Assembly: GCF_020921035.1 (NCBI RefSeq) | Contig: NC_063156.1 | Coordinates: forward strand, 1,488,001-1,552,000 | Source: Rhodamnia argentea | Lineage: Eukaryota; Streptophyta; Magnoliopsida; Myrtales; Myrtaceae | Length of the DNA: 64,000 nucleotides | Direction: 5' to 3' | Part shown: positions 4,656-54,342 of the stretch, in pieces | Layout of the letters: each line of letters opens with the position of its first letter | Numbering within the stretch: the stretch's first letter is position 1 | Made by a program: the position numbers and the translations under genes | The notes under the pieces: model-generated | The model's database searches: none | Told to the model about the DNA's origin: nothing | What the model saw: only the letters and a program-made list of their open reading frames with translations

Positions 4656-7600
4656 ATGAGCTCGAAACCCTCTCTGAAGATCCGAGTCGTCGCGAAAATC
4701 AGAGGCCATGCGGATCGAGAGACCAAACGTTGGATCTCTGTCCACAAGCCTAGCGGAGAGGACTCGGAGACTGTCGCCTTGTCTTTTGACGCTCAATCTG
4801 CTAGGTACTCTCAGTCTCTCTGCGTGCGTGCGTGTGTCTGCCTGCCGATTTTTTTTGCGTTTTTTTGTTGCGATTTTACGTTTCCTGTACGTGAATTGAT
4901 GAAAGGAAGCTAGTGATGGTTAGGAGTCTTTTACTCCACGACTACTGTGTCCAGATTGATGTGGGATCCTGTTGACGATGCTAATTTTCTTCTGTTTGAA
5001 TTGCTGAGGATAGTGGAAGTCATTTGTGCACAAATATACACACACTATGCGAAACTATTGTCGGTCGAGAATGAGGGAAGACGATATCTATGTTATGAGA
5101 TTAGGCTTATTTTTAGTTTCCCTGAGAATGGAAAAATTGGAGCCGGTGGTTAGATTGTGACGGGGGAATGACAAGTTGAAAGGCTTTCCCTAGTCTTGAA
5201 GAGGGGAATTTATGAGAGAGAAGTAAGGTTTACATATCCTATCTAATGTCCATGAACTTTTAGCATGTGTCAAGAAGATTAGCATTTAGATTTCCAGGAC
5301 CGGATTATGCAGATAATGCTGAAATAGCCAGTCATCTTCACTTTCTTCTAGTAATATGTGGAATTGGATGGGCTAATCACCCTTCTATTGCAGTAAAAAA
5401 GAATCCCATCAAGTGCACTACTGCTACGAGCCTAATGAAGACAATGATAAGATATACATCAGAGAGATCAAGCCTTTTATATCAGAAGTTTTTGATGGTC
5501 ATAATTTCACTACCATTGCTTATGGGGCTAGAGGCAGCGGAAAGACATGCTTAATTCAGGTTAGATTTGATAGCTTTAATGTTTTTGGCCGTATTATTCA
5601 CAAATTTTAGTTCTAGCATATGCTGTGGTTATTGATATGTCTATCTTGAAGGGCTCGGGGGAGAGCCCAGGCTTGACTGCACTAGCGATTGAAGACATTA
5701 CTGAAAAAGCTGAAAGATTGGAGAGACTAGTTACAATATCATTCTATGAGATTTACCAAGAGCAGGTCTATGATCTGCTGAAATCAGAAAGGGCAGCTGT
5801 TTCAATACTTGAAGATGCCCAAGGAAAAATAAAATTGAAGGGACTTTCTCAGGCATGTCCTCTTTGTAATTAGAGAATTAGGATGTGAATTTGTGACTTG
5901 ATGTTGGCCAACTTCATTTCTTTGTGCATGTTCCGTAATATTCAGGTTCCCATAAAGACTGGCGCAGAATTTCGCAAGCTTTATTTTGGCGGTTGCAATT
6001 CCAACAGAACACTCAACAAGACGGCTTATGAACTTCCTAAAAGAAGCCATAGGGGCTTAATTATTCACGTCACATCTCTTGTTGAAAACACAGATGCACC
6101 TCTTGTTGGCAAACTGAATTTTGTTGACTTGACAGGTTTGGTTCACGCTTTTATTGTAATCCCCAAGTTCTTTAGCAAGTATAAACTGTGCTTCCCTTTG
6201 ACTTTGTCTTTATCAGGTTATGAGGACCCTCGCAGGAAAAGTAACGACGGCCTTAGCTTTGTGGAGAAGAGTAAAATTAACAAGTCACTATATGCGCTAC
6301 AAAATGTTCTTCATGCTTTGAATGCTAATGAAAATCATGTTCCTTTCCGGGAAAGCAAAGTCACTCGCCTGTTGCAAGATTCACTTGGAGGCTTAAATAA
6401 TAGGCTCACAGTCATAGCTTGCTTGGTGAGCCTGGTTGCTTCTTTGCTCTGTTTACATGTCTCATTTGCATTATTTACTTATGATAACTAGTCAATAAAT
6501 TATTCTTAATTTGCTCCTACAGAACCCATTATTTTGCCAAGATTCCATTTACATTACCAGTTTAGCTTCTCGGATTTGTCAAGGAAGTCATCAGATTGCA
6601 ATGGAATCTGCAAAGAAGGGCAAAACTTTTGAAAAACCAGTAGTGATATCCTCATCTAAGGTTAGAATCTCACAAAGTGCTTCTGGAAAGCAAATCAGGT
6701 CTCGGGTTGGTCTTCTTCGAAAGAATGCCAGTTGTAAATCAATCATGAAGGGAAAGTAAGTTGATGTTTTCCTTTTTATTCTTATGACTGTCTAAAATTC
6801 ATGTGGATCTTTATTTAAGGGGTATACATGGTTTTTTCTTCTTGCTGTGAAGGAAACTATTTGGCGAGACAAATGACATGAATAATGATGTGAAGGTACT
6901 TGACCTTCTCTTTTATATGTAAATGAAGTAGTTTATCACTTTTATCTAAACTGGCAGCTGAACAAGAATGGTTCTTTTATGGCAAGAGAGAAGAGTATCT
7001 ATTTGTAGACAAGAATGTCTAAGAATCTCACCTCTCTAATGAGCATTTTGGGTCTTGCGTATGGATTGAAGTTGACTCAACCATTTCTTTTCTCCAATAA
7101 ACCTTTGCTTTATGGCCATATTGCAGGCTAGCTCAAACACAGCTGTTGCTTCAACCGTTGAAGCTGGAGCACAAGAAGAGGTTACTTCTTTCTACATATT
7201 TCAAACAAACATATTTCTTGAGAAACATTGGTTTCCTTATCTAGTATTTTCATATATTGCAGGAAACTTCTGTATCTGCCGATGCTTCATCTTTTGAATC
7301 TTTGATGCATGGAGATGTTAGTAACCCCAAGTCTTTTGAGGTTTGAGGTTAAGAGCATATTGTTTTATAACTTAGTTCATGTCCTGATAATTTCAGGAAA
7401 AGTCCGGCTTCAGTGTTACCAAGAGTATGGTCTCATCAGAGAAGGTAATTGAGTTTTTGCTTTTTCAATGTCATTTTATGTGATTTAATTTATAAAACGT
7501 CATGAAAGATTTCTTTTTCAACAGCAAATTTCCTCTACGGTGTTGCAACATACCTTGGAAAACACTGAACCACAAAACGGGGTAATTTACATGTCAACAT

Positions 7601-15179: not shown

Positions 15180-16375
15180 TTGAAGACTAAACAACTATGA
15201 CTTCTTCAGAAAGATCAACTAAGTCACGAGTTTTACAGAAGAAATGAAGGCTTCGTGATGGTCAAAAAGATGGATGCCTGAGCTGAATAAGAGAGAGATT
15301 TCAATGCTTCCCAGTACAACAAAATACCCATTTTACATGACATGTCTCTCTGCATCTCAACTGCTGCTCCCTTAAATACTGTCGCGGGGAAAAGCCAAAA
15401 AGAAGGGAGAAGAAACCATAAGTTGTTATTCCAACAATCCAAGGGACAAAATTAAGAACATGAAAATATAACCAAGACCTTTTGAAAAATATCTACATAA
15501 AAGCAAAACGAGAAGATGCATGTCAAATCAGAGTTATGCAAGCTTAGAACAGATAAGCATTCAAATCAAAGTGAAGAGTCCACCGAGGCCAACATATACA
15601 TATCCAGGAACTCAACTTTCACACCACTCGGTCCATTTTGCCGCAAAATTACTATACTTCATTTAATTTCAATCCGCACTAATCTCACTGGTCTTCTTTT
15701 TTTTCCACTTATGTGCGGCAAATGCTGAGTAACTAGTATCCATCTCTGTGATTGAATAACAAGCACCTTCGTATACGATATAGAAATTAGCGGACCAAAA
15801 TAATCCTCCTAATTCCTTCAAAAAGTCGACTCAAAAGAAAAACTATCAGCTCACTCAATTCGCCCACGCCAAACAGAAGCTAATTCCTTCAAAAAGCCGA
15901 CTCAAAAGAAAAACTATCAGCTCACTCAATTCGCCAGCGCCAAACATAAGCTAGTGGCATATAAAGCAAACCGTCAACAGAGCAACCTTATAAGAAGACA
16001 AGCAAAAAAATCAGCTCAATCCTGGAATCGAAAGACGTCACATTTTACTCAGCACCGCACGACCAATGACCAAATCACAACGCCTCAATCAAAACGACGC
16101 CAATTCAGATCTCAATTGACCGTCGAAGGGCGGAATCTACGAAACAAAGCGACGAACTGAACACGCTCGCGAGACAGGCAAGTACGACGCACAATGCACC
16201 CGCCCGATTGAAAAAAACCGACGCAGAGAGGAAGAGGGGATAGAGGCGAGGTCGAACCTGTCGAGAAATGGCGAGAAACGAGGGAGACGTCGCCAATTTT
16301 CGCAGGCGGTGCTAGGGTTTGCAGGGGTGATTGAGGGAAGAAGCACCTCTCTCTCTCTCTCTCTATCTGCCAATT
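15180..16375 (-). other. 5' leader and promoter-proximal region of the SKP1-like gene
   Basis: On the minus strand, a stretch at about 16260-16370 resembles a leader exon ending in CGACAG|GTTCGA (complement of about 16254-16265). A CT/GA-repeat lies at 16345-16365, a composition common near plant transcription starts. The acceptor just before the ATG at 15179 was not fixed. No conserved protein is encoded here. Confidence 0.4.
15809..15950. repeat. Two tandem copies of a 71 bp unit
   Basis: Two head-to-tail 71 bp copies begin CTAATTCCTTCAAAAAG at 15809 and 15880. They differ at only a few positions (for example GTCGAC versus GCCGAC). They fall in the presumed leader intron of the SKP1-like gene. 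Confidence 0.9.
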
Positions 16376-16840
16376 TTCTCTCTCTAGATTTCTGTTGGGA
16401 GCGGGCCGTCGATGGGCGCTGTTACGGATTTGTGTGCGGGGTGGGGGTGGTGGTGCTCGCTCCCTCGCACGTGACTCTAATCAGAGCTCGGGGCAACCGT
16501 TGCACGTGTTGGTAGTTAGGGTTTTTTTCTTTTTCTTTTTCTTTTTATTTTCTCTCTGGCTAATTTCGTTCGTGATCGCAACTGAACCGAAGGTGCCGAT
16601 TTGATTTCAATCGGGTTCGAACCTCTCGCATTAATTCACGGGCCGGTACTCCCCCATGAGTCGATGGGGCTCGAGCGCCACTTCTCGCGACGGTATTTTC
16701 TCTCGGATATTATTGAACGCGGTAAGATCGGGGTACTGCAATTGAAAAGTCGATCGATTAAATTGAGACACTCGAAAGCACGAAGCTATGAAAGAAATGT
16801 ACAACTCTTGAAAGCAATGTCATAAAAGAAATTACTTAAT

Positions 16841-17125
16841 CATCATATCAATTAAAATTTATGCCATTAAAAGGGCCGGTTGAGTTTAGTTTTAGTTCTC
16901 TCAATGCCTTTATCCGTGCAAAATCGCAGTTTGGTTCTTTTAAGTTTATTGTTAGCAATATCAAGATATACATTTAGTTGATTCAATATATCTTTTAAAA
17001 TATACACTATCACCTTTGCTAGTGCATATCCTTAATTGAATATATTTGATATTATATTTATCTTATTAACTTAGTTAGTCTTCTAACAAAGTTTATAAAT
17101 GAGTTCCATGTACTCTTTTCTAGAT
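16841..17125. repeat. 285 bp direct repeat, left copy
   Basis: The sequence starting CATCATATCAATTAAAATTT recurs in the same orientation at 23573-23857 with identical length and roughly 85-90 percent identity by eye. The two copies bracket the kinesin-fragment array. I see no primer-binding site or polypurine tract beside them, so calling them LTRs is not supported. Confidence 0.85.
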
Positions 17126-17350
17126 GGTAAGTATTTTCCCCTTTCTCTACTCTCGAATTAAGTTAGTTCGTGAGTACCAAATATAAAGGATGGTTAAGCT
17201 GAATTACAAGTATGTAAACATTTCGCCAAAGTATATTATCCACAACAAGACCTTGGGATAAAATGATTCTTCCACATTACTACATTCTATTAGAATTTGC
17301 ATAAGTGACTTTGCTAGTATACCACATGAATATGGAGGCTGCGAAAGACG

Positions 17351-17974
17351 GGAAAATTATCAAAAAAATCCTAAACCTATTACAATTGTGTCAATTCAGC
17401 CATAAATCATTTTTTTTTGTCAATTCCTTCAAGCCAATTTTGGCCGGCCGACGCTAACGTGGACACTATCACTTACATGGACAATTTTTGATAATATGTT
17501 GCTATTATTTCGAATTTTATATTTTTCTTTCTTTCTTTTTCTCCTTTTCTTCTTCATCTAGCAGGCTTTCGGGAGAACCGACCATTAGCAAGGTTGAGGT
17601 CAAGCCTCGCCCATAGCTCATGACCTTGTCAAGGGCGGGTGAGGGCGAACCCCGCCGTTGCTGGGTGAGGGCGTGCCTCACCATGGTTGGGCAAGGCTCA
17701 ACCTTGTTAATGGCCAATGGGGGCGAGCTTCACCATAGGCCGGCTGAAGGAATAAGGAAGAAAAAAAAGGCAAAAAGAATACTAAACAAGTCAAAAATTG
17801 TCAAAAATTAGCCATGTCGGTGTCAGCCCACGCCACTTTAGAGATTTCCAGTCAAAATTGACCGGAATGACTAAATTAGTACAAATATAAAAGGTTTATG
17901 AGTGAATTGGCCAAAAAAAAAAAAATCTGAATTGACACAATTGCAATAGGTTTAGGACTTTTTTGGTAATTTTC
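17351..17974. mobile_element. Foldback/MITE-like element with GC-rich core (family M1)
   Basis: The left terminus reads GAAAATTATC, AAAAAAATCC, TAAACCTATT, ACAATTGTGT. The right terminus, inverted, reads GAAAATTACC, AAAAAAGTCC, TAAACCTATT, GCAATTGTGT. These are terminal inverted repeats of about 45 bases. Inside, A/T-rich arms flank a GC-rich core (about 17560-17740) with GGCGAGGG-type repeats. No transposase is encoded. Confidence 0.75.
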
Positions 17975-18259
17975 TCGAATTCTCGGCATTGCGAATTTTA
18001 TCTTTGAGAAGTTCCTTTACCTCTACAAAATGCATGACTTATTGCTTTATTCGCAATATCTTGTTCTTTGTCTATGTTATCCGGCGGCGGCTTGTTGAAC
18101 TCCACCGCCCCCTTCTTCCTCGGCGATCTCTCTCTTCTGATTTGAATTTAATTGTCTTCTTTTTAATATTTTTGCAGATTTTGTTTTGGACAAAATGTCA
18201 TATTCCAGCCGCTGGAAAAATCAAGTGCTCCAAAGGCTGATGAAAATTTGATTGTCGAC

Positions 18260-21200
18260 GAGGTAATGGCACATCGGATGATTGACATTAATGGCTCGAG
18301 CGTAAAATAATTGCATAGGTCCAACACCTACTAGAAATGACAATCCGGTAAATAATTATCTATTAAGTACGCAATCATTGAATAAGAGCAAAAAAGACAT
18401 AATAAATATAAGGACTTATGTCAAAGAGTTGCGAGTCTAGTCCAAATTCGACACAGGTGATACAATCAATAAAAATAGGTGTCTTCACATTACCCCAAGT
18501 GAGTCGCTCATTAGCATTGTCAACTTAGGATTTCTATATGGAATATGAGAAGCAAAAGTAGATAAAAAATCATATGATAATCATCCAAAGCTTAGGATAA
18601 ATTTTGCTCACATTTTTCATGAAAGGTATCACAATGGACACCGATCCTCTTATGTGACACGGCTGATACTGAAATGGATATTTTATAATAATATTTTAAT
18701 ATTTTTTGCTCACATGTTTTATTTTTACTTTTTCATTTTGAAGTAATAGGACCACGGTCTTCCGTTGATGCAATAATTGAGGTAACGGCACCTCAGATGA
18801 AAAGTGTAATACAAACATTTAGCGGTCTATCCTTAAAGAAACGGATTCGATAGGAACTCAAAAACATGGAATTAACAGAAAATAATAAACGAATTAAAAA
18901 AGTAATTTTGTTTCAAATTGGAATATGCAAAAATATCCGGCAACTTCCCATAAGGAGGTGGCCGCAAGATCTACAGGAATCGTTTGCATCATCTTTTGTA
19001 AAATGCTCCTAATGCAAAAGCCAATAGTCCTTAACAATAAATAAGAAGTGAAGGCGAAAGTCATTGCATCAACAACATAACTAATGTTACAATTACAATC
19101 TACAAAAACAACTCAAAAACATTTCGCCAGTCTTCGCAGTCTCCTCTCTTCCCTGCTTGCTCCTTTCATTGCAATCATGATCGACAGTAATGGTTCAAGA
19201 ATCTACGTAGAATAGTTGCATAGTCCTAGCTCTTACTAGAAATGACAATTCAAGAAATAATTACCTCATAAGTACGTAATCGTAGAATAATAGCAAAAAA
19301 GACATAATAAATATAAGGACTTAGGTCAAAGAATTTCAAGTCTCGTCCAAATTTGACACGACATGCGATACATTGACAAACATATATGCCTTCGCAGTAC
19401 TCGAGTGAGTCACTTATTAGCATTGTCAACTTATGACTTTTATATGGGAAATGCGGAGAAAAGATAGATAAAAAAATTATCCGACAATCTTCCAGAGCTT
19501 TAAATAAATTTTGCACACATTTTCCGTGAAAGGTATCATAATGTATGCTGACCTTCTTACGTGACACCGCCGGTGCTGACGTAGATATTTTGTAACAATA
19601 TTTTACCATTTTTTTGCTGACATTTTTTATTTTTCTTGTTTCAATTTATTTTTTCATTTTGAAGCAATAGGATCATGGTCTTCCGTTGATGCAATAATCG
19701 AGCTAATGGGACATCGGATGAAAAATGAAATACAAAGATTCAATGGTCTATCTTTGAAAAAACGGATTTGATAGGAACTCGAATATATGCAATTCACCGG
19801 AAAAAATAAATAATTAAAGAAGCCCCTAGAACCTATTTTGTTTCAAATTGGAATATGCAAAAATCTCCTACAACTTTCCACAATGAGGTTGCCACAAGAT
19901 CTACAACTTTCCACAAGGAGATGGCTGCAAGATCTGCAGAATTCATCGTGTTGTGTCATCTTTTGTAAAATGCTCCTAATGCAAAAGCCAATGGTCGCTA
20001 AGAATAAGTAAGAAGTGAAGACGAAAGTCATTACATGAAGAACAGAAGTAATGGGAAGAAAACTCAAAGATATTATTCTAGCCGCCTGTTTTTAAGTCAT
20101 ATAGTCTCCTCTCTTCCCAGCTTTCTCTTTCCAATTGGCAACCACTTTTTTCAAATGCTCTACCTCTTTTGATTTTGATGAGATATTCTTGCTTGGATCA
20201 TTCCTAGCTGAACGAACTCTTCATGCATATTGTCACATATTGTTTTTTGGGTTAAGATATTGTTAGATAGTTCAAAAAGGGAAAACAACAAATCAATAGC
20301 CACTAAGAGAACTTGAAAACATGTCTACAAAGTAACAATCCATTGCGATCATGATCAACAGTAATGGCTCAAGCATCTGGTAGAATAGTTGCATAGACCA
20401 GCTGTTACTAAAACTTGGCTATCCAGTGAATAATTATCTCATAAGTGCGCAATTGTTGCATAAGAGCGAAAAAGTCATACTAAATATAAGGACTTAGTCA
20501 AAGAATTGAAAGTCTTGTCCATATTTCACACAACAGGTGATACATTGACAAACATATGTGTCTTCGCATTAGCCCCAAGTGATTCGCTCATTAGCATTGT
20601 CTAACTTATGATTTCTATATGGGATAGGCGGAGGAAAAGTACATAAAAAATCATCTAATGGTCTTCCAGAGCTTTAGATAAATTTTGCTCACATTTTTCG
20701 TGAAAGGTATCACAATGGACGCTGACCCTCTTATGTGGCACGGCCAGTCTTGACGTGGATATTTTATAATAATATTTTAATATTTTTTTGCTGACATTGT
20801 TCTTTTTTCTTTTTCTTTTTTCATTTTGAAGCAATAGGATCACGGTCTTCCATTGATGCAATAATCGAGATAATGGGACATCGGATGAAAAATGAAATAC
20901 AAATATTTAGCTGTCAACCTTTGAAAAAATGGATTTGATAAGAACTCGAAAATATGCAATTCACCGGAAAAAAAATAAATAAATAAAAGAAGTCCCTAGA
21001 ACTTGTTTCGTTTCAAATTAGAATATGCAAAAATCTCTTACAACATTCCACAACGAGGTGGCCACAAAATCTAGAACTTTCCACAAGGAGGTAGCCGCAA
21101 GATCTGCAGGATTCGTCGCGTTGCGTCATCAATTGTAAAATGCTCCCATGCAAAGCTAATAGTCATTAAGAATAAGTAAGAAGTGAATGCAAAAGTCATT

Positions 21201-23572
21201 GCATGAAGAACCAAAGTAACGTTACAACTACAAAGACAACTCAAAAACATTCTTCTAGCCGCCTGTCTCGAATCTCCACAAGATCTTCACAGTCTCCTCT
21301 CTCCCCAACTCTTCAAGATCATCACAGTCTCCTCTTTTCCCAGGTTGCTCCTTCTAGTAGGCAACCAGTTTTTTCAAACGCTCTACGTCTTTTGATTTTG
21401 ATGAGACATTCTTGCTGGGATCATTAGTGACTGATGGAACTCTTGACGCATACCTGAACATGCATATTGTTAGATAGCTTTTTTTTTTGTTTTGGTTAGG
21501 ATATTGTTGGATAGTTCAAAAAGCGAAAAACAACAAACCAATGGCCACTCAAGAAGTTGAAGTCATCAATTCTACAAACTAACAATCCATTGCAATCATG
21601 ATCGACAGTAATGGTGCAAGCTGCTACGTGGAATAGCTGCATAGACCCTCTTCCTAGAAATGACAACTCGGTAAATAATTATCTTATAATTATGCAATCG
21701 TTGAATAAGAGCGAAACAAGACGTCAAAGAATTGAAAGTCACATCCAAATTTGACACAGGAGGTGATACATTGACAAACATAGGCGTATTCACATTACCC
21801 GAGTTGCTCATTAGCATTGTCAACTTATGATTTCTATATGGGTTATGTGGAGCAAAAGTAGATAAAAAAAATCATTTGATGGTCTTCCGGAGCTTTAGAT
21901 AAATTTTACACACATTTTTTAGTGAAAGGTATCACAATGTACGCCGACCTTCTTACGTGACACAGACGTCGCTAATGAAGATATTTTGTAATGCTATTTT
22001 AATATTTTTTGCTGACATTTTTATTTTTCTTATTTCCTTTTCATTTTGAAGCAACAGGATCACGCTGTTCCGTTGATGCAATAATCAAGGTAATGGGACA
22101 TCGGATGAAAAATGAAACAAAGATTTAGCGCTATATCTTTGAGAAAACGGATTCGATAGGAACTCAAAAATATGCAATGCACTGGAAAAAAAAATAAATA
22201 AATAAAAGAAGTCCCTAGAACCTGTTTCGCTTCAAATTAGAATATGCAAAAATCTCCTCCAACTTTCCAGAAGGAGGTGGCCTCAAGATCTGCAGAATCG
22301 TCGTGTTGTTTCATCTTTTGTAAAATGATTCTTAAGTAAGAAGTCAAGGCAAAAGTCATTGCATCAACAACATAAGTACCATTACAATCTCCGAAGATAA
22401 CTCAAAAACATTGGTCTTGAATCTATTCAAGATCTTCACAAGTCTTCACCCTTTTCAGCTTGCTTCTTCAATAGGCAACTAGTTTTTTTAAACGCTCTAC
22501 GTATTTTGATTTTGATGAGAAATTCTTTGATGCATACCTGAACATGCATATTGTGAGATTGCTTTTTTTTGGGGTTGCGATATTCTTAGATAGTTCAAAA
22601 ACAAACCAATACCCATTCGAGAAGTTGAAGCCATCAATTCTACAAACTAACAATCCAAGCAATCATCGACAGTAATGGCTCAAGCATTTACATAGACCCA
22701 GCTCTTACTAGAAATGACAATTCGTTAAATAATTATCTCATAAGTACGCAATCGTTGAATAAGAGCGAAAAGGAAATAAAAAAATGTCAGGACTTACATC
22801 AAAGAATTGCAAGTCTCGTCCAAATTTGACACAATGGGTGATACATTGACAAACGTAGGTGGCTTCGCATTATCCCCGAGTGAGTCGCTCCTTAGCATTG
22901 TCAACTTACAATTTCTATATGAGATATGCGGAGCAAAAGTAGATAAAAAATCATATGATGATCTTCCAGAGCTTTAGATAAATTTTGCACACATTTTTCT
23001 TGAAAGGCATCACAATGTATGTTGACCTTCTTACATAGCACGAATGGCACCGACGTGGATATGTTGTAATAATACGTTAATATTTTTTTGTTGACATATT
23101 TTATTTTATTTTTTTCTTTTTCATTTTGAAGCAGTAGGATGATGGTCTTCCGTTGATGCAATAATCAGGGTAGTGGGACATCAAAAGAAAAAGGAAATAC
23201 AAACATTTAGCGGTCTATCTTTGAAAAAATGGATTCGATAGGAACTCGAAAATATGAAATTCATCGAAAAAATAAATAAATCCAAGAAGTCTCTAGAACC
23301 TGTTTTGTTCCAAATTGGAATATGTAAAAATCTCCTAATACTTTTCATAAGGGGGTCGAAGATCCACAAGATTGATCGCGTTTCGTCATCGTTTGTAAAA
23401 TGCTCTTATTGCCAAAACCAATAGTCGCTACGAAGACAACTAAAAAAAGTTCTTCTAGCTGCCTGTTTTTGAGTCTTTTCAAGATCTTCACAGTCTCCTT
23501 TCTTCCCAGCTTGCGCCTTCCAGTAGGCAACCAGTTTTTTCATATGATCTACCTTTGATTTTGATGAGACAA
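18260..23572 (-). pseudogene. Tandem array of decayed kinesin motor-domain fragments (five units)
   Basis: Five direct units of about 0.9-1.25 kb start near 18260, 19168, 20341, 21588 and 22654. Each carries, on the minus strand, remnants of two adjacent exons of one kinesin gene. Exon A holds the motor end: PYRNHKLTMLMSDSLG then MFVNVSP..SNLDET.NSL (about 18440-18565, 19330-19470, 20520-20625, 21715-21845, 22805-22920). Exon B reads YASRV..NDPSKN, then SSKSKDVERLKKLVAY and KEQ.GKRGD (about 19118-19166, 20098-20235, 21290-21460, 22435-22560, 23465-23572). Frames are broken by indels and stops; for example the family tryptophan codon in AYWKEQ is TAG in the 21.3 kb copy. Splice signals partly survive: AT|GTAAGT after exon A and CAG|G before exon B, in matching phase. 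Exon B sequence resembles plant kinesin-14 proteins, not the kinesin-10 at 4.7 kb. Confidence 0.8.
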
Positions 23573-23857
23573 CATCATATCAATTAAAATTTATGTCATT
23601 AAAAGGGCCGTTTGAGTTCAGTTTTAGTTCTCTTGATGTCTTTATCTGTGCGAAATCACAATTTGATTCTTTTAAGTCTATTGTTAGTAATATTAGAATA
23701 TATATTTAGTTGATTCAATATATCTTTCAAGACATACACTGTCACCTTTGATAGTGCATATCCTTAATTGACTATATTTGATGTTATATTTATCTTATTA
23801 CCTTGGTTAGTCTTCTAACAAAGCTTATAAATAGGTTCCATGTACTATTTTTTAGAT
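23573..23857. repeat. 285 bp direct repeat, right copy
   Basis: This is the partner of 16841-17125. It begins inside the last kinesin exon-B fragment, cutting it off right after the codons for SSKSK, so its left edge is a junction. Confidence 0.85.
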
Positions 23858-23981
23858 ACATCGAATTATACAATAATTCCTCTCTTTCGATATAATACTC
23901 TCAACTTTTATTTCCATGTAATCAAGTCATATATATCTCTAGAATTATAGCATCAAGCCCTCCAATAAATCACAATTTCAG

Positions 23982-24077
23982 GTTCCTTCAAGTTGGCTAT
24001 GTCGCATTACTTGGTGCAAGTTCACTGACCTTTGTCATGGTCGTCCCCTGCCTAGAGAGATCCATACAAATAGGAAT
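23982..24077 (+). pseudogene. Orphan exon-like ORF encoding a membrane segment
   Basis: This 96-base open segment is framed by a good acceptor (ATTTCAG) and a consensus donor (GTAAGT). It encodes a hydrophobic stretch including VGYVALLGASSLTFVMVVPC followed by LERSIQIG. No neighbouring exon was found. It may be a captured exon of a membrane-protein gene that I cannot name. Confidence 0.3.
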
Positions 24078-24302
24078 GTAAGTCGTTTCCTAATTTGTTG
24101 ATCAAATTTGCACATCTCTAGAAGTATCATAGATATCAAATACAAATGGCTGATCATAAGCATCAAGTGAAAGCTTTGCCCCTTTTCCCTCCACGCAAGT
24201 GCTCCCTTAGCCGAATTCGCTACAACACAATCACATCATCCAAAGTTCTATGGCGACGAAATTTGCAGTCGGAGAAATGTGTGATCATGGGCATGTTATT
24301 AG

Positions 24303-24565
24303 TTAAACAAGTGTTGAACCTACAACAATCACTATGATCCAGAAAGGGGCTCCAAACTTTAGGCGCCTCCAAAAGCTTAAGTTGTGAGCAAGATGAGGTG
24401 AGCGGCGAGCCTGCTAGCAAACAATCAAGTCAGCGGCCGAGCCTAGGAGCAAAATGTTTCCAGCCACGGTTCCAACCCAAGCCAGAATCATCCATTCCTT
24501 CTTGATATCGCCTCGCGACATGGAGAAGCTATTGGAATCTGCTAATCTTGTTCCTAGTAATAACC
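24303..24565 (-). pseudogene. Lsi2 exon-3 copy with one nonsense codon
   Basis: Exactly 263 bases, the same length as exon 3 of both intact Lsi2 genes, with a TAG acceptor and a final TAA. The frame reads GLLLGTRLADSNSF, then DIKKEWMILAWVGTVAGN and LLLGSAADLIVC. TAG (24414-24416) then replaces the GAG of the conserved CEQARRSPH. The frame beyond is otherwise intact. No exon 1 or 2 accompanies it. Confidence 0.8.
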
Positions 24566-24689
24566 CTACAATGCAAATGTTTTGCAATGAATTAAGGCTA
24601 GTTTGCAATAGAAAGTCATCATATGCTAATGACCATGTTAGTCCTTAAAAGGGAAACGAACATTATCCCCACACTTGGATGAGGCTGGG

Positions 24690-25080
24690 CTAGAGAAGAG
24701 ATCACACATTCAGTTGCCAGATTAGATGGCCATCACTGGCATCTTACAACTATAATCGAAAGGGAGCTGGTCGTGCCTTATTGGACCGAGCTTGGCCCAA
24801 TGGCGTCTTATTTTACGCGCCCCACCTCGCCATTCACTTAGTTTCCTGTGTTACTTTGCCTCAGCGTGGGACATTAGAATCCCTTGAAAAAAAAAATCAC
24901 CACCAAACAAGTCCACGAGAAACACTACCATGTAATAGCCACATCAAGCCACGTATTGGTCACAACTCGTTCGTGTCGTGCTGTTCGCCTGTTTGTAATA
25001 GTAAATGCGTAAAATTTACAACTCGTGACATGAGCGATGAGTGACGCTACATCAACATGTCATGTGATATAACCGTTAAT
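24690..25080. repeat. Direct repeat within the Lsi2 duplication tract (copy 1)
   Basis: The stretch from about ACACATTCAGTTGCCAGATT onward, including TTATTGGACCGAGCTTGGCC, recurs at about 25850-26215. It marks a local tandem duplication that carried Lsi2 exon-3 sequence. Confidence 0.75.
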
Positions 25081-25123
25081 TCAGTCAAAGTTCTATGGTC
25101 CCCAATGATTATGCCTTTATTAT

Positions 25124-25390
25124 CTAACTAATAAGTGTTGAACCTACAACTACCGCTACGATCGTAAAAAGGACTCCGAATTAACTTTAGACCCCTCCAA
25201 ATTCTTAAGTTGCAAGCAAGACGAGGCGAGCGGCAAGCATGCTCGCAAACAATCAAGTTGGAGATCGAACCCAAGAGCGAAAGGTTTCCAGCCACGGTAC
25301 TGACCCAAGCAAGAATAAGCCATGCCTTCTTGATATCGTCTCGTGACACGAAAGCTGTTGAATCTGCTGATCTTGCTCCTAGCAATAAAA
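25124..25390 (-). pseudogene. Lsi2 exon-3 copy, frameshifted, acceptor lost
   Basis: The frame encodes LLLGARSADSTAF, then [19 protein letters not shown] and LSLLGS. A 4-base insertion near 25177-25185 shifts the end of the frame. The CAG acceptor seen in the intact genes has become AAT at the matching position. Confidence 0.78.
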
Positions 25391-25552
25391 TTGGGAATAA
25401 GTTTACCCGAAATGCCATGACTTTTGTATACCGTTTACTTGGGTGCTATAACCTTTTTTTCGCTCATTCGAATGCCACAAATTTGAAAAATAGATCGCTT
25501 AAATACCATCGGCGATTTTTCTTGCTGGAATCTGATCACTTAAGTGCCATTA

Positions 25553-25713
25553 GCTGCAAACAAGATGAGGCGAGCGACGAGCCTGCTCACAAACAATCGC
25601 GTCAGCGGCCGAGCCCAAGAGCGAAATGTTTCCAGCCACCCAAGCCAGAATCGGCCATGCTTTCTTGATATCGTCTCGGGACATGAAAGCTTTGGAATCT
25701 CCTAGTAATAACC
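25553..25713 (-). pseudogene. Lsi2 exon-3 copy, truncated and deleted
   Basis: This copy starts after CAG and encodes [20 protein letters not shown], then LAWVAGN and [20 protein letters not shown]. Two in-frame deletions remove the ARFAD and STV equivalents. It stops matching after the serine-proline-histidine region. It probably pairs with the exon-2 remnant at 26826-27011 as one dead gene copy. Confidence 0.75.
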
Positions 25714-25849
25714 CTGCAATGCAAATGTTTTGCAGCGGATTAAGCCTAGTTTGCAAAAGAGAGTCGTCATATGCTAAGCCATGTTAGGCCTTAAAAGTGA
25801 AATGGATACGATCCCTGCATTCGGAAGAGATTGAACTAGAGAAGAGACC

Positions 25850-26215
25850 AATACACGTTCAGTTGCATGATTAGATGGCCGTCACTGGAATCTTACAACT
25901 ATAACTGAAAGTGAACCGGTCGTGCCTTATTGGACCGGGCTTGGCCCAATGCGTCTTGCTTTACACGCCCCCACCTCGCCATTCACTTAGCTTCCTTTGT
26001 TATTTTGCCTGAGCGTGGGACATTGCCATCCCCTAACATTTTATTTCACCACCAAACAAATCCACAAGAAACCGTGCTATGTAACAGCCACATCAAGCGA
26101 TATTGATCACAACGTATGTGCCGTTGGCGTATTTCTATCAGGAAATGCGTAAAAATTATGATATACTCAATGAGTGAAGCCACATCAACATGTCACGTGA
26201 TATAACCATTACCTA
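25850..26215. repeat. Direct repeat within the Lsi2 duplication tract (copy 2)
   Basis: Partner of about 24690-25080, sharing the segment from ACGTTCAGTTGCATGATTAG through TTATTGGACCGGGCTTGGCC to the phrase CATGTCACGTGATATAACC. Confidence 0.75.
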
Positions 26216-26825
26216 GTAGATTTTCTCCATAGATGTGAAAATGCAAATTATGGATATATTGATAGGATTTGATGGACCTAGTTTTTATTCGGATTTCATG
26301 ATTAACCCATCATTATCCAAAAGAAAGAAAACATAATTAATCTGGTAATAACGTTGTTTTCTTTAGAGTTTAGTCATTTAATAGATCCACTTACTTCTCC
26401 ACGACGTAGGCTTTTAGTAACTCCTCTCAGCGAAGCTAAAACAAAGTTCGTTAGGCATGTTAACTAAAAGGGGCTTGAGAGGAAATGTATGAAGAATTTG
26501 TAACATACGAATGATTTGGGAATCTTACAAAAATCCTTATTTGTCACTTGTTACGTGATCTGTCTATCTCAACAGGTAACACAGTTAAGAATCTCTCTTC
26601 CCCTCGCAATGCGAGAAACAATAGCTTTCTATCAAGACGCCTATTGGACCAATTCTGCATTTGAAAAGCAAGCAACAAACGACCGCTCAGGATATTAGAT
26701 GATCTTCCCACATTTCCAGACAGACTCGGTCTCACGGATGCAAAGAACGAAGAAGTCAATCTAACCCATCCGAACAAAGCATATTAGCCATTCTTTTTCT
26801 CGTTAGCAAAGAGATCATGTAAAAG

Positions 26826-27011
26826 ACATTCGAGACGAAATTGGAGAGCACAACGAAAACGAGGGCAAGAACAGCGATGCCACGCGCACTAGCGACCTGC
26901 GGGTATCTCTTCGTGTACTCCCAAAGCAAAGATGGGACCCCGGTTCTTTCGAATCCTTCGACAGAGATGAAAATCCCGCAAAAGAATACCATGAGCTAGG
27001 GAACATGAAAC
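26826..27011 (-). pseudogene. Lsi2 exon-2 copy, frameshifted, donor lost
   Basis: The frame encodes MVFFCGIFISVEGFERTGVP, then SARGIAVLALVFVVLSNFVS. A 4-base insertion near 26992-26998 shifts the frame after the preserved CAG acceptor. The terminal CCAACAG|GT of the functional exons is replaced, so the donor is gone. Intron-like DNA at 26600-26770 matches 27965-28125 inside intron 2 of the intact gene, showing that intron sequence was duplicated too. Confidence 0.78.
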
Positions 27012-27348
27012 CTGAATCAAAACAAACGTGGTCGATTGATTCACTGGCATGCTTCTAGGAAAGCGAAGAAGGCAGGAATGAACCGAACTGCGCACCGAAC
27101 AAGTAAGAGTGATTCTAATATGTATATGTAAAAACTGAAATTAATTCATGAGGATGCCTTTTGACCCCTCTGAAGCTCCCTAAAGCTCCATAAAGCAGCT
27201 GATCACAAAAACTAAGTTAAAGCTTTGCCCTTTCCCTCCGCGCGAGTGCTCCATTAGTCCAAGTCACTACAACACTCTCGTCATATGCAGTTCTATCATC
27301 AGCAAAATTTGCAGCCTCTGAGAATTGTGTGATCATACTCACTGTCAT

Positions 27349-30300
27349 TTAACTAATAAGTGTTAAACCGGCGACGGTCACTAAAATCGTGGAAGGGACT
27401 CCGAACTTGAGGTGCCTCCAAAAGCTTAAGTTGTAAGCAAGATGAGGCGAGCGGCGGGCCTGCTCGCACACGATCAAGTTGGCGGCTGACCCCAGGAGTG
27501 AGAGGTTTCCGGACACAGTACTGACCCAAGCCAGAATCAGCCATGCCTTCTTGAGGTCGTCTCGCGTCCTGAAAGCTTTCGAATCCGCGAATCTTGCCCC
27601 TAGCAGTAAAACTGCAATTGTAATGAATTAAAGCAAGTTTGCACTAGAAAAGATCATCATATGTTATGACCATTTTGAAACTTAAAAGTGATATGGATAT
27701 GATCCCTGCATTTGGATGGGGTTGGACTGGAGAAGAGATCACACATTCAATTGCTAGATTGACATTTTCATAGTTTAATAACTGTGGCAAATTGGAATCC
27801 CAGAACGACGTATTCATCTCAAAGCATGTGCGGCTAATCTATTTTTTTATTGTAAATGTGTAAAAGTCACAATAAATGATGTATTTAATTAGTGACACCA
27901 TATCAATATGCTACATGATATACGCATTGCATAATACTAATAGGCCTTTTCCAAACTTAATATAAGCATTACTTCGCGAAACAATGGTTAGTCAATTTCA
28001 AGACGCCTATCGGACCAAATCTACATTTAAAACACGACCAACAAACGACCGTGTCAAGATACTAGATGCTCTTCCCATTGTTCCAGGACGGACTCGCAAA
28101 TTACAAGAACAAGGAGCGCAATCTAACAACATGATTACCAAAACAGTCCTAAATCTATTATAATCGTTTCAATTCGGTCATAAACTTTATTTTTGCTAAT
28201 TGAGTCATGAACCTTTTGCATTTATGTCGGTTCAGTCCATTTAGCCGGTTAGCGCTAATGTGACCAAATTTTAATAATATTTTTTCAAAATTTTAATTAA
28301 ATTTTATTTTATTTTTCTTCCTTCTTTACTTTTGTTTGTGGTCGACAAGGGTTGCCGGAGCTCCTCGCATAGCCTCGCGCGATGGTCGAGGCCGTGAGCA
28401 AAGGCAACCTTGCCCACAACCGGCAAGGCCATGGCCACCTTCGCCCACCGCCGACAAGTCTCGGGTGAGGCCAATATCTCCCATGAGGCGCGACAGCCTT
28501 GCCGGCCGCTGTCGAAGGTGGCCATGTCCTTGCCGGCCGCAGGTGAGGCCGCCTTCGCTCACAGCCAGCAAGGCTATGGTGAGGTTGCCCTCTCCCCGGG
28601 CGAGGGGCCACGACCCTCACCGGCCACAAACAAGAGCAAAGAAGGAAGAAAAAGGAAAAAAGTAAGTAAAAAGTAAATAAAATATTATTGAAAATTGGCC
28701 ATGTCATTATTAGCTAGCTAAATGAAGCGAATTGGCAAAAATATGAAAGGTTTAGGACTAAATTAGCCAAAAAAAAGATTTATGATTGACAATAAATTTA
28801 GGACTGTTTTGGTAATTTTTTCCTTAGCAAGAAATCCCGTGTGTCAAACAAAGCCTTTCTTCCTTTTCTTACAGGAGAAAAACCTAGGAAAGACTCTGGC
28901 CATACAAACAACTCTGGAATAGCGCTACTTTTGGGAAATCCTAGACAAGAGAAATGGTGGCTGCAGCGATGTCTTCACATATAAAATGTAGGTGCAGGTG
29001 TCTCACAGGATTCTGCAGGTCGGGCCACTGCCACCTTCTTGTTGGATATATCCACCATAGCTTTGTTGCAGAAGTTCCCTCCCCTAATGGCATAGGCTTA
29101 AACTTGATCACTCTCTCCCTTTTAAGGATGAAAACCTAGGGTTCATCAGCATACCAGAAGCCGCGGTGAAAGCAACGACCACTCAGCCCCCCCGACTACT
29201 TATGCTTTTGGTCATTGAGCAAAATCTATGTCTAAAGTATATTTTCTACATTTAAAGTCCGAAATGCAGGAGTTTACATTGCAGTCAGATAAAAAGGTAA
29301 GTAATCTGCATTCGATTGACATATCAATCTTCCTAGTTCTTAAAGTTCCTTGTGACAACATGTTTGTTCTACGTCAACTCCGCCCATTTGAGGATAAAAA
29401 CCAAGATGTTAAAAAAAATTCAAGATGTTTCAACGTGGATCTTGGACTTATGAATGGTTGTAATGCATCATGAAATTCCGTTTTCTGCATTAAATATTGA
29501 TAGTAGGCGTGATTTTCTATGTCAATAGTGTGCTGAAGAATGCATAAGATAGTTCCTCACGAGTAAAGTGACATACCTGTTGGGACATTGGAGACAGAAT
29601 TGGAGAGGACAAGGATGACGAGGGCGAGAACAGCGACGCCTTTCGCACTCGTGACCTGCACATATCCCTCCGCAAAAGCCCAAAGCGAAGATGGGATTCC
29701 GGTTCCTTCGAATCCTTCGACGGTGATGAACATCCCGGAAAAGAATACCAAGAGGGAATATGAAACCTAAATCAAATCGAATGTGTTCAGACAAAGGAGT
29801 GAACTGTTTCACTTGCTTATTTTCACATAAGCATAAATGAAAATACACGTAACTTCTAACACACTTCAAATTAGTGGATTTGGGATTTCTTTTTTCATTT
29901 TTTGTTTTCTCATAAGGTAAAAGAACAAGAGAAGGAGCATCAACTTCCTAATTTTGTATGCAAGGAACTTATATATTTAACTTTTTTGAATTTATGGGCC
30001 CGAAAAAGAGAGAAGGTGATGACAATGTCGAACTGATGATTCATGTGCAAGTTCTATTCTGGAACTCTCGCCTTCCTCGTATCTAGAAGGATTTTGCTAG
30101 TATAGCAGTATTTAGACCACCATAAGAGTAATAGTATGTTATGAGCCACAAATCATTGAAAAAACAGACACCATAATGATTTATAATAATTTATAAATTT
30201 ACCTTTTTGTGGCCTAGAACATACTGTTATTCTCATGATAGATTAAAGACTGTCACTAGATCATTTCTCCACATAGAAATTACTATTTATCAAATCGTGA

Positions 30301-41980: not shown

Positions 41981-44900
41981 TCAGCTGACTTCAGGCTGCA
42001 GCATTGGGAAGAATGACCAACTGCTACCAGACTTCGTATCCTTCCCAGCAACCTTGTCATTCGCCCACCACTCCGAGTTTATATTGGGCTTATTAGATAT
42101 ACCTCCATTTCTGTTGTCGAAGTTGAACTCTTTGGTTGATCCAAGCGTGATGGAACGATGCTTTTGATAGCTGTGGTCCTTCTCCATTAGACTTGACCCC
42201 TTGACAAGTTTATCATCTGTACCTTTTTCAGTACATCGTTCATTAGAATCCTCATCAACTCCCACGGTCCCACCTCTTTCAGCTGGGCCTTCAGCTGCTT
42301 CATCCTCAGGACATTTTGATAAAGTTCCAAAAGAGGTCGCAGCTTTGTTTGCAAGACAACGTGCAACATCTTCACCAGTTAATTCAAACGACACTCTAGG
42401 ATCTACTATGGTCTCGTCATGTTTAGATCCATCATCCAATCTTGGAACCGATGCCCTTATGCTGATTTGATTGCCAAAATGAAGAAAGCCTTCGCGGGAC
42501 ATAGGGCCAGTGCCATCGGGAGTCAAACATCCAGAACCCAGCCTCGATCCCATTCCCACGCCATCTGGTGTTAAAGATCCAGAACCAAGTCTGGACCATA
42601 GCCCTGCACCATCTGGTGTTATAGACCCAGAACCCATTCTTGAACCCCACTTTCGAGTGGAAAAAGTTTCAAAGCCCCATAACTTGGGAGCTTCACCCAT
42701 TCTTAACTCGATAAAGGGGTGTTTCCCAGGGAATGGCGAAGTGGTTCCCGAATATGAGACTGCTGAACCAGGTGATCTCAGGTTGCCACCTGGGCTTCCT
42801 GGATATGACTGATTAGGAAGGAATTCACAATTGGATAGTGAAAACTTATGGTTGGTCCCACCACCCCTCTGCGTGCGTTCAAGCGAAGATGTGAGTAGTT
42901 GAGCAAAGGGAACTTCAGGAGAAGAAGGTGTTGTCAAATACACAGATTCCGGAGGAGGAGTAAAAGGAGCAGTGGATGGTTCGGTGGTGAAAGTGGAAAC
43001 TACAGGTGGCGAAACTAGCTGGGTCTCATAGGCATAAGGTCCAATGGCAAAGATAGATGCAGGCCCTCTAGGAGAATAAGAATTGATGGAAAGAGAAGTA
43101 AGGGAAAGTAATCCGGTAGGTGATTGGGTCACAGAAGGAGGATCAGAAGGGAGGAACGATGCAGGAGATGAGGGAGGAGCAATAAACGGCAGCACAATAG
43201 CAGTTGATGTGGCCTGGTTCTCTGCTGCAGGAGCTGTGTTACCCAGAGCGACTGGTTCAGGGAGAAGGACGGCATGGCCAATTCGTTTGTTGCTCTTATG
43301 ATGTCCAAAGCACCAGTATAGGCTCCAGCAGCTTCCCCATCTTCTTTTCTGCATTTGAGTTGGGTGAAAAAGCAACTAAAGTTAGAAAGCATCAAAGTCT
43401 CATTGGAATAACCTTACCAAAAAAAAAAAAGTCTCATTGGAATAACGGTTATTAAAACAGTGATGGGATCAAAGATCAAACAAATAACAGTTACCAAAAC
43501 AACAATGGGAAGGGGATCAAAGATCAACCAACAAGTGTTCGTTTCAAGAAAAATCAGGCGTGTAAACAGTAAAAGCTACCACTTTCTAAGAGGCCATTTA
43601 GGTGACTCACAAGTACTAGAACTAATCCACGAGTTTTGTAAGAGAATCTACACTATTTTGATTCATTAACGTGACAATCCATAGGCACCACCACCTGACA
43701 TGAGTCATGACCAATAATTTGACCGTGAAGAGCTTTACACAAACAGAAACAAGAGTTATAAATAGCTCATATCTGAATAATAATCAATCACCTTGGACAA
43801 AACAAAAAAAAAAGGCTACTATGTAAGTGTCAAATTTTGTGAGACCACAACCTGGAGTAATTTAATAGTTAAACTTTCTAGCATTCATCTTAATGCAAAG
43901 GCTAGACTTTGGCCTAAGCCTAAAGTGTTGAATTATAAATAAGGGAGATAAATAGAAGCCAGAAACATTTGAACTCGGATCCTCCTGTGCTTATACCATG
44001 TAGCACTACCGATAGCTCTAAAAGCTTAGAATACCGGTTTTAGTACTTCTCTTAACAGTAAGAATAGAGGGACACTTCCAGTATGTGGTCCTAACTTTAA
44101 GCAGAAACTACCAGAAGTACGCACATGGGGGAAACTGAGGTGTTTCCTGGAACATACTTAGAAAACCAAATGCTAAGAAAAAGGTACAAAGCTTTGGATA
44201 CTAAAAATCACCGCTAAGTTCCTTAGTCTAAGTCCCTTTCCTACAAGTCTGCTGGGCATGAATAAACACTCTGTCACCCACATAAAGAAAAGCCCAAACC
44301 ATGAGCACCCAAACTGTGTCTACCGTGTCTTCCTTCTTTGGAGTGCTTACTGGTCAGCAGCTTGATGCAGTAATCACTTTCATTTTCACTGATCACGGAG
44401 ATTAGAGAACTATAAGTGGTTGAATTTCTTTTTCTTGGTTTAAAAGCACGAAATAAAGAAACGAAAATTCATGCAATGTGCATTGAAAATATCACAAAAA
44501 CAAACAAAAGCAAAGTCCATCTTAGCAGATTCAACTTCTTCATAAATTTCGACCAAAAGAAAAAAAACTTCATAAACAGTCTACAAGATCCCTTTATATC
44601 ACTGCTCTTAAAGCAGTCAGCGTATCACAAGCCATAAGTATAACAGCTATGCACAACTAAAATTTACAAATCTAGATCAATCTTCTCAGCGACAAATCAG
44701 GACCTAAGAAAGGAGAAAGCCCCTGCCTTTGGTGTTGACAAATCACAATACTGCCCCCATTTACTTTTCCGATTCACAACTTCGTAGCTCCAATCTAAAC
44801 AGGCGTGAAATCTCTAACCACAACTCGTCCAAAAAAACTCACAAAACAAGACAATCAAGGCACACATAATAACTTGATTCCCGCGATAAGTTGATTCGAC

Positions 44901-53698: not shown

Positions 53699-54342
53699 AT
53701 TAATACCACGAAAAACCCTAAACCGTAACACTTGTGATAAATTTTGGTCAAATTATTTTTTGATTACAAAAAACTTTAAACTACTACACTTGTAATAAAT
53801 TTATCTCAAATTATTTTTTTATCACCAAAAACCCCAAATCGGTACACATATAACAAATTCACCTCAAACCGGTATACTTGTGATAAAGTTACCCGCCGTT
53901 AATTTTTCGTTAAATTTTACCATCAAATTGTCGAGTTGCATGGCACGTGACGGTTAACGAGTGTATCGGTTTGGGGTTTTTACCCTCTATTTGTCACAGA
54001 TGTGTCGGTTTGAATTTTTTTCGTGGTACTAACCCTATTAAACGGAAATTAACGAAAAGTAAATTTGTCACATGTGTACGAGTTTAGGATTTTTAGTAGT
54101 CAAAAAAATTAATTTCTGATAAATTTATCACAAGTGTACGGGTTTGGAATTTTTTGTGATAAAAAAATAGTTTGGGGTAAATTTGTCACATGTGTATCGG
54201 TTTAGAATTTTTTTGCGATAAAAAAAATAGTTTGTGATAAATTTCTCATAATTGTATTAGTTTGAGATTTTTCATGATAAAAAAATAATTTATGATAAAT
54301 TTGTCAAGAGTGTATCGGTTTATTGTTTCTCGTGGTATTAAC
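53699..54342. mobile_element. Inverted-repeat element built of repeated 60-base units
   Basis: Left TTAATACCACGAAAAACCCT; right, inverted, TTAATACCACGAGAAACAAT. Inside, the phrase GATAAATTT(G/A)TCACA with GTGTA(T/C)CGGTTT recurs in both orientations. Confidence 0.75.

Follow-up and report, generated by a model that had tools for sequence, protein, structure and literature searches.

A head-to-tail array of KCBP kinesin gene fragments between two copies of a 285-bp target duplication in Rhodamnia argentea

Layout of the array

The DNA analysed here (the window) is a 64,000-bp stretch of the Rhodamnia argentea genome (C7:1488001-1552000), and genome searches were made in its own assembly (346.7 Mb, 74 contigs). 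Positions 18260-23572 of the window hold five head-to-tail units on the minus strand, each 0.9-1.25 kb long and each with the motor-end exon (exon A) and the neck exon (exon B) of a kinesin. Unit 1 (18278-19176) has exon A at 18422-18565, a truncated exon B at 19118-19165, pieces of earlier exons at 18561-18623, 18797-18945 and 18945-19052, also on the minus strand, and a dispersed-repeat piece at about 18633-18742. Unit 2 (19177-20350) has exon A at 19327-19471 and exon B, with one stop, at 20104-20229; unit 3 (20351-21597) has exon A at 20499-20625 and exon B, also with one stop, at 21285-21452. In unit 4 (21598-22661) exon A (21725-21865) is free of stops and frameshifts, and exon B (22411-22530) has lost its 5' end and contains internal stops. 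Unit 5 (22662-23572) likewise has an exon A without stop or frameshift (22797-22946), and the 5' end of its exon B (23463-23570) is cut at the edge of the insertion described below. What is left of a sixth unit on the same strand, 21 bp recognised by eye (18260-18280), agrees with the unit consensus at 20 of 21 bases.

The reality of the five direct repeats, which an earlier sequence-only reading had reported, is borne out by several comparisons. Among the 20 direct-repeat families listed, six are represented by five copies spaced about 0.9-1.25 kb apart across 18.3-23.4 kb; self-BLAST reveals the array diagonals at 74-78% identity, the longest of them aligned over 3481 columns; and no match off the diagonal on the same strand arose at E <= 1e-3 in any of 20 mononucleotide shuffles of 14-27 kb. 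Tandem Repeats Finder, for which the longest period given was 500, reported no array of unit-length period. A separate alignment of the units, with 23469-23572 included, gave 81-84% identity between them. The bounds of 18260 and 23572 also fit, the former being the start of the sixth-unit remnant as read by eye and the latter the end of the last unit. The description of the unit as a pair of exons is correct in that exons A and B are present, but incomplete in that earlier-exon and 3' UTR pieces of the same gene are present as well.

Parent gene and content of the unit

KCBP is a motor of trichomes and cell division that combines MyTH4, FERM and kinesin motor domains in a single gene and represents the kinesin-14 class with MyTH4-FERM. 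Exon A of the 22.8-kb copy matched KCBP chains first in PDB (1.2e-13 and 3.2e-13; next match 2e-8) and the Kinesin family in Pfam (6.7e-10). For exon B of the 20.1-kb copy the PDB matches were to KCBP alone (two of two sequences at E up to 1; 2.9e-9 and 5.4e-8). By these matches KCBP is the kinesin to which the array exons are closest. The translations of both exons thus match a kinesin, as had been proposed, and since PDB ranks KCBP first for each, the source does differ from the kinesin encoded locally (a Pfam Kinesin match at 5395-6425 of the window), which is ruled out as the parent.

The parent KCBP gene lies on the minus strand of contig C11 at about 14.826-14.834 Mb, with its stop at 14826191, and was read exon by exon. 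Its exons matched MyTH4 (5e-15 and 8.1e-7) and Kinesin (1.1e-39 and 5.2e-22) in Pfam, a predicted combination of MyTH4 and kinesin motor that marks the gene as KCBP. Four of the ten pieces in the Pfam set gave no family: two array exon B pieces, and two parent pieces from the exons that are presumably FERM. With unit 1 as the genome query, 35 matches were found among the best candidates scored: five in the array, three at C11:14830614-14831347, and 27 others, every one of them located in the dispersed-repeat piece of the query (positions 364-473). The last two exons of the parent, searched in the same way, gave seven matches: the parent, five in the array and one of 96 bases in another kinesin-containing locus on C9. 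Neither search found further copies of the array among the best candidates scored.

To judge from its alignment with the parent, the unit reproduces the 3' half of KCBP in colinear order, riddled with deletions, and comprises a FERM-region exon, a coil exon, the motor end, the neck exon and a piece of 3' UTR. In unit order the corresponding C11 blocks are 14831347-14831237, 14830962-14830806, 14830662-14830600 and then directly 14826863-14826237, with edges that vary slightly among units and with some pieces truncated. Missing from every one of the five units are about 275 bp of the FERM region and a stretch of about 3.7 kb that separates the coil from the motor end, and in all five an insert with the dispersed-repeat piece replaces part of the coil exon. 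The same piece of the A-B intron is missing from all three units that keep that part of the intron, and the four exon B copies in which the site is preserved all share a two-codon insertion that the parent lacks. Because the 3.7-kb gap is common to the five units, the founder that was amplified was already broken. The 3' UTR piece is a 31-bp match after the neck (84%, E 0.003), which none of 100 mononucleotide shuffles equalled in score. The A-B and FERM-coil introns are both kept relative to the parent; the copying therefore took place at the DNA level, as the sequence-only reading had argued, and a processed pseudogene is ruled out. The unit consensus also matches C11:14823037-14823108 in the opposite orientation (72 columns, 71%, BLAST E 3e-6).

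Coding state

Searches with the exon peptides of the parent recover exon A in all five units and exon B at all five places, of which those in units 1 and 5 are short and that in unit 4 is without its 5' end. The stretch of exon A from PYRN to NSL is an unbroken frame in two of the five units (21.8 and 22.9 kb). The copy at 21.7-21.85 kb, singled out earlier as reading through from PYRN to NSLT, is indeed open from PYRN to NSL, with a 6-base deletion. Every exon B copy carries a stop or a truncation. A complete motor in open frame, as a functional kinesin gene would have, is absent: most of the motor is missing, the frames are mostly broken, and no unit encodes a usable motor. The array as a whole is presumably without function.

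The insertion and its flanks

The array lies within a larger insertion bounded by a 285-bp sequence, D8, that is present twice in direct orientation at 89% identity. The left copy (16841-17125, plus strand) is joined to the left flank, a combination also found at C3:31392441-31392915, and the right copy (23573-23857, plus strand) is joined to the right flank. Between the left copy and the array lie four segments. The left end of the insertion (17126-17348, about 220 bp) matched only itself in a genome search, which gave no source for it. The dispersed element with inverted ends at 17349-17977, which may be MITE-like, has an inverted self-match of 60% over 695 columns and many matches in the genome. 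An 81-bp fragment at 17979-18059 on the plus strand is 79% identical to C9:6744489-6744569, an exon of exportin-2 (CAS/CSE1) that matches 'importin alpha re-exporter' in PDB (4.8e-27). The piece at 18171-18249 is an 80% match to C9:1825533-1825610. Pfam named no gene behind 17956-18310, giving no family for any of the four frames sent. The right edge of the insertion falls within a truncated KCBP exon. A second local repeat family adjoins at 24.1-27.8 kb.

A relative of this locus at C3:31392270-31392915 carries both flanks and no array. Its left part corresponds to the left flank and most of D8 (window 16539-17010, 89%), and its right part, 11 bases on, to the right flank (window 23922-24081, 97.5%); it is without the last part of D8 and without 23858-23921. 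D8 belongs to a dispersed family. Among the dispersed relatives listed, 36 of 39 extend beyond the end of the right D8 copy into the right flank (39 being what is left of 43 matches among the best 40 of 100 candidates once the two C7 matches, to this locus, and the two C3 matches, to its paralogue, are set aside), and none of the seven listed extends more than one base past the end of the left copy. Because the left copy is whole leftward and the right copy whole rightward, 17126-23572 is a 6.4-kb insertion with a long target duplication, which probably arose through repair. An LTR retrotransposon with D8 as its LTRs was rejected, each D8 copy being continuous with its own flank and the C3 relative being free of the array. 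A three-way comparison over 210 columns, some of them poorly aligned, gave 39 differences between the left and right copies, 28 between left and C3, and 35 between right and C3; the uneven paralogue does not settle the order of events.

Divergence and history of the units

For distances and the tree each unit was trimmed where exon B ends, which left out 23469-23572; the parent columns aligned to the insert were also omitted. Kimura two-parameter (K2P) distances between units range from 0.183 to 0.226 (mean 0.205), and the maximum-likelihood tree is nearly a star, with internal branches amounting to 1.9% of its total length and bootstraps of 31, 36 and 39. This shape suggests one burst of multiplication and not the turnover of a satellite. 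The star is imperfect because a 33-bp tandem duplication is restricted to units 2 and 3, which mildly suggests conversion or nested duplication. Over the introns, the distance from parent to founder is 0.181 and those from founder to units are 0.067-0.148, which suggests that the time in which the founder was a single broken copy, ahead of the burst, was the lesser share of its history.

Origin of the array

The most probable reading (about 0.75) is that the array is an inert set of pseudogene fragments produced by DNA-level copying, one burst and insertion at a repaired break. A KCBP segment that begins in the FERM region and reaches the 3' UTR would have been copied as DNA, and would have become a pseudogene fragment by internal losses (one of about 275 bp, one of about 3.7 kb, and lesser ones) and by gain of the dispersed-repeat piece. 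The broken founder would then have multiplied head to tail, apparently in one burst, into at least five units, possibly by a rolling circle or by replication slippage. The block, with the exportin-2 exon fragment, would have entered C7 as the 6.4-kb insertion; the long staggered ends of a break, filled in and joined with extra DNA, would have left the flanking 285-bp target duplication, and the units would have decayed independently thereafter. Amplification and insertion as a single event fit poorly, because the D8 copies and the units should then be equally diverged, yet the D8 copies are less so (K2P 0.121 +- 0.023 versus about 0.205; 0.111 versus 0.166 without CpG sites). Either the array is older than its landing on C7, or D8 has undergone conversion.

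As a biological object the array is ordinary, though unusually easy to read. The order in which a segment was copied, suffered internal deletions, multiplied in a burst, was inserted with a 285-bp target duplication and decayed can apparently be read from it, and it may serve as a test case for the way in which plant genomes amplify pieces of genes and put them back. It resembles a duplicated, unprocessed gene-fragment pseudogene in its retained introns, internal deletions, stops and frameshifts, and distance from the parent, and differs from one in its five-fold head-to-tail multiplication after the internal losses. In rice, insertions attributed to break repair are described that come with duplications and draw on ectopic donors (Vaughn and Bennetzen 2014, as summarised in PMC7407515); the present insertion is like them in its extra DNA, ectopic donors included, and in the duplication of the site, but those in the summary measure 10-1000 bp, whereas this one is 6.4 kb long, contains a tandem array and has a duplication of 285 bp. 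Among the open-access papers listed, no title or opening of an abstract describes a tandem array of KCBP or kinesin fragments.

A more specific version of events, in which the rearranged KCBP segment closed on itself and gave rise, in a single round outside the chromosome, to a rolling-circle concatemer that was patched, together with the exon of a second gene, into a long staggered break on C7, is tentative, and the odds are somewhat against it. Like eccDNA concatemers, the array has head-to-tail units of similar age, ends cut at different points and the colinearity of a segment closed on itself; it differs in being known from the end product alone, the circle being putative. Truncated and chimeric circles occur in Arabidopsis, and little has been described of how circles re-enter plant genomes (PMC10462705). 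If a circle was involved, the array would be a legible fossil of amplification by way of a circle and of its return to the nuclear genome of a plant.

Alternative explanations

Growth on site, by stepwise unequal crossing-over from one inserted fragment over a long time, is unlikely: it would be expected to leave nested groups unless very fast, and the similar pairwise distances and minute internal branches of the tree speak against it, although the 33-bp duplication shared by units 2 and 3 is what such growth might produce and the neighbouring repeat family may indicate a locus that favours tandem duplication. Still less probable is that a gene-capturing transposon (a Helitron, Pack-MULE or other Pack-TIR element) gathered and moved the block. 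Capture would account for the intron-bearing fragments of two host genes, KCBP from C11 and exportin-2 from C9, in one insertion; it is common in plants (PMC13317346), and the array shares with such captures more than one host gene, included introns and a single insertion, but differs from them in its long target duplication, its single place and the absence of any element ends found. The edges of the insertion have no terminal inverted repeat (at best 11 of 20 positions agree among the offsets tried), which, with a duplication of 285 bp where none or a few bases would be expected, speaks against Pack-MULEs and other Pack-TIR elements. Helitrons begin with TC at the 5' end, end with CTRR at the 3' end and make no target duplication; here neither the TC start nor the CTRR end is found and the duplication is present, which speaks against a Helitron. 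The position of the right edge inside a truncated exon also argues against capture.

Three fates had been offered by the sequence-only reading, of which a simple relic is the best supported. That of a satellite in formation is hardly credible: the units are head to tail and of similar length, but there are five of them at the one site found by the two genome searches (best candidates scored), their distances are about equal, they have decayed independently with no sign of homogenisation, and the ends of the array are truncated. The other fate, a source of small RNAs acting on the parent KCBP, is very doubtful as judged from sequence matches. The longest exact match, to exon B of KCBP, is 27 nt (23516-23542, in unit 5), and of 912 parent 21-mers, taken from five exon stretches around the copied pieces rather than from the whole gene, 15 occur exactly in the array and 237 within three mismatches, compared with none within four mismatches in one shuffled control. 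In maize, gene pieces that have been captured can give rise to siRNAs directed at the donor genes (PMC13317346). Exon matches of this kind, however, follow from common descent and indicate only that such action is possible, and self-BLAST of both strands found no inverted unit match except a 78-column dispersed-repeat piece at 20751-20827. Small RNAs from the array, if ever found, could bear on KCBP.

Sequences neighbouring the kinesin array

A second local repeat family adjoins the kinesin array (18260-23572) and occupies positions 24149-27760 of the window. Its copies form the pairs 24149-24723 and 27198-27760, 24380-25078 and 25552-26211, and 24296-24563 and 25117-25388, with 76-79% identity between copies, and the divergence of this family is similar to that of the array. 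When 24140-25400 was used as a genome query, three matches were obtained, none of them outside its own locus.

Both flanks of the insertion that carries the array are present, without the array, in a 646-bp copy on contig C3 (31392270-31392915), which matches the window with uneven identity (89% and 97.5%). Beyond this copy, only short matches resembling dispersed repeats were found in the 26 kb of C3 compared. Within the insertion, the end of the MITE-like element is followed at once by an exportin-2 exon fragment (17979-18059).

Elsewhere in the window, 142 bp (43861-44002) have 69% identity to C11:14828584-14828728, within the region of the parent KCBP gene, possibly due to a dispersed repeat common to both. 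A 71-bp tandem duplication (94%) lies to the left of the array at 15809-15953, and a tandem array with reported periods of 60 and 118 is located at 54060-54322.
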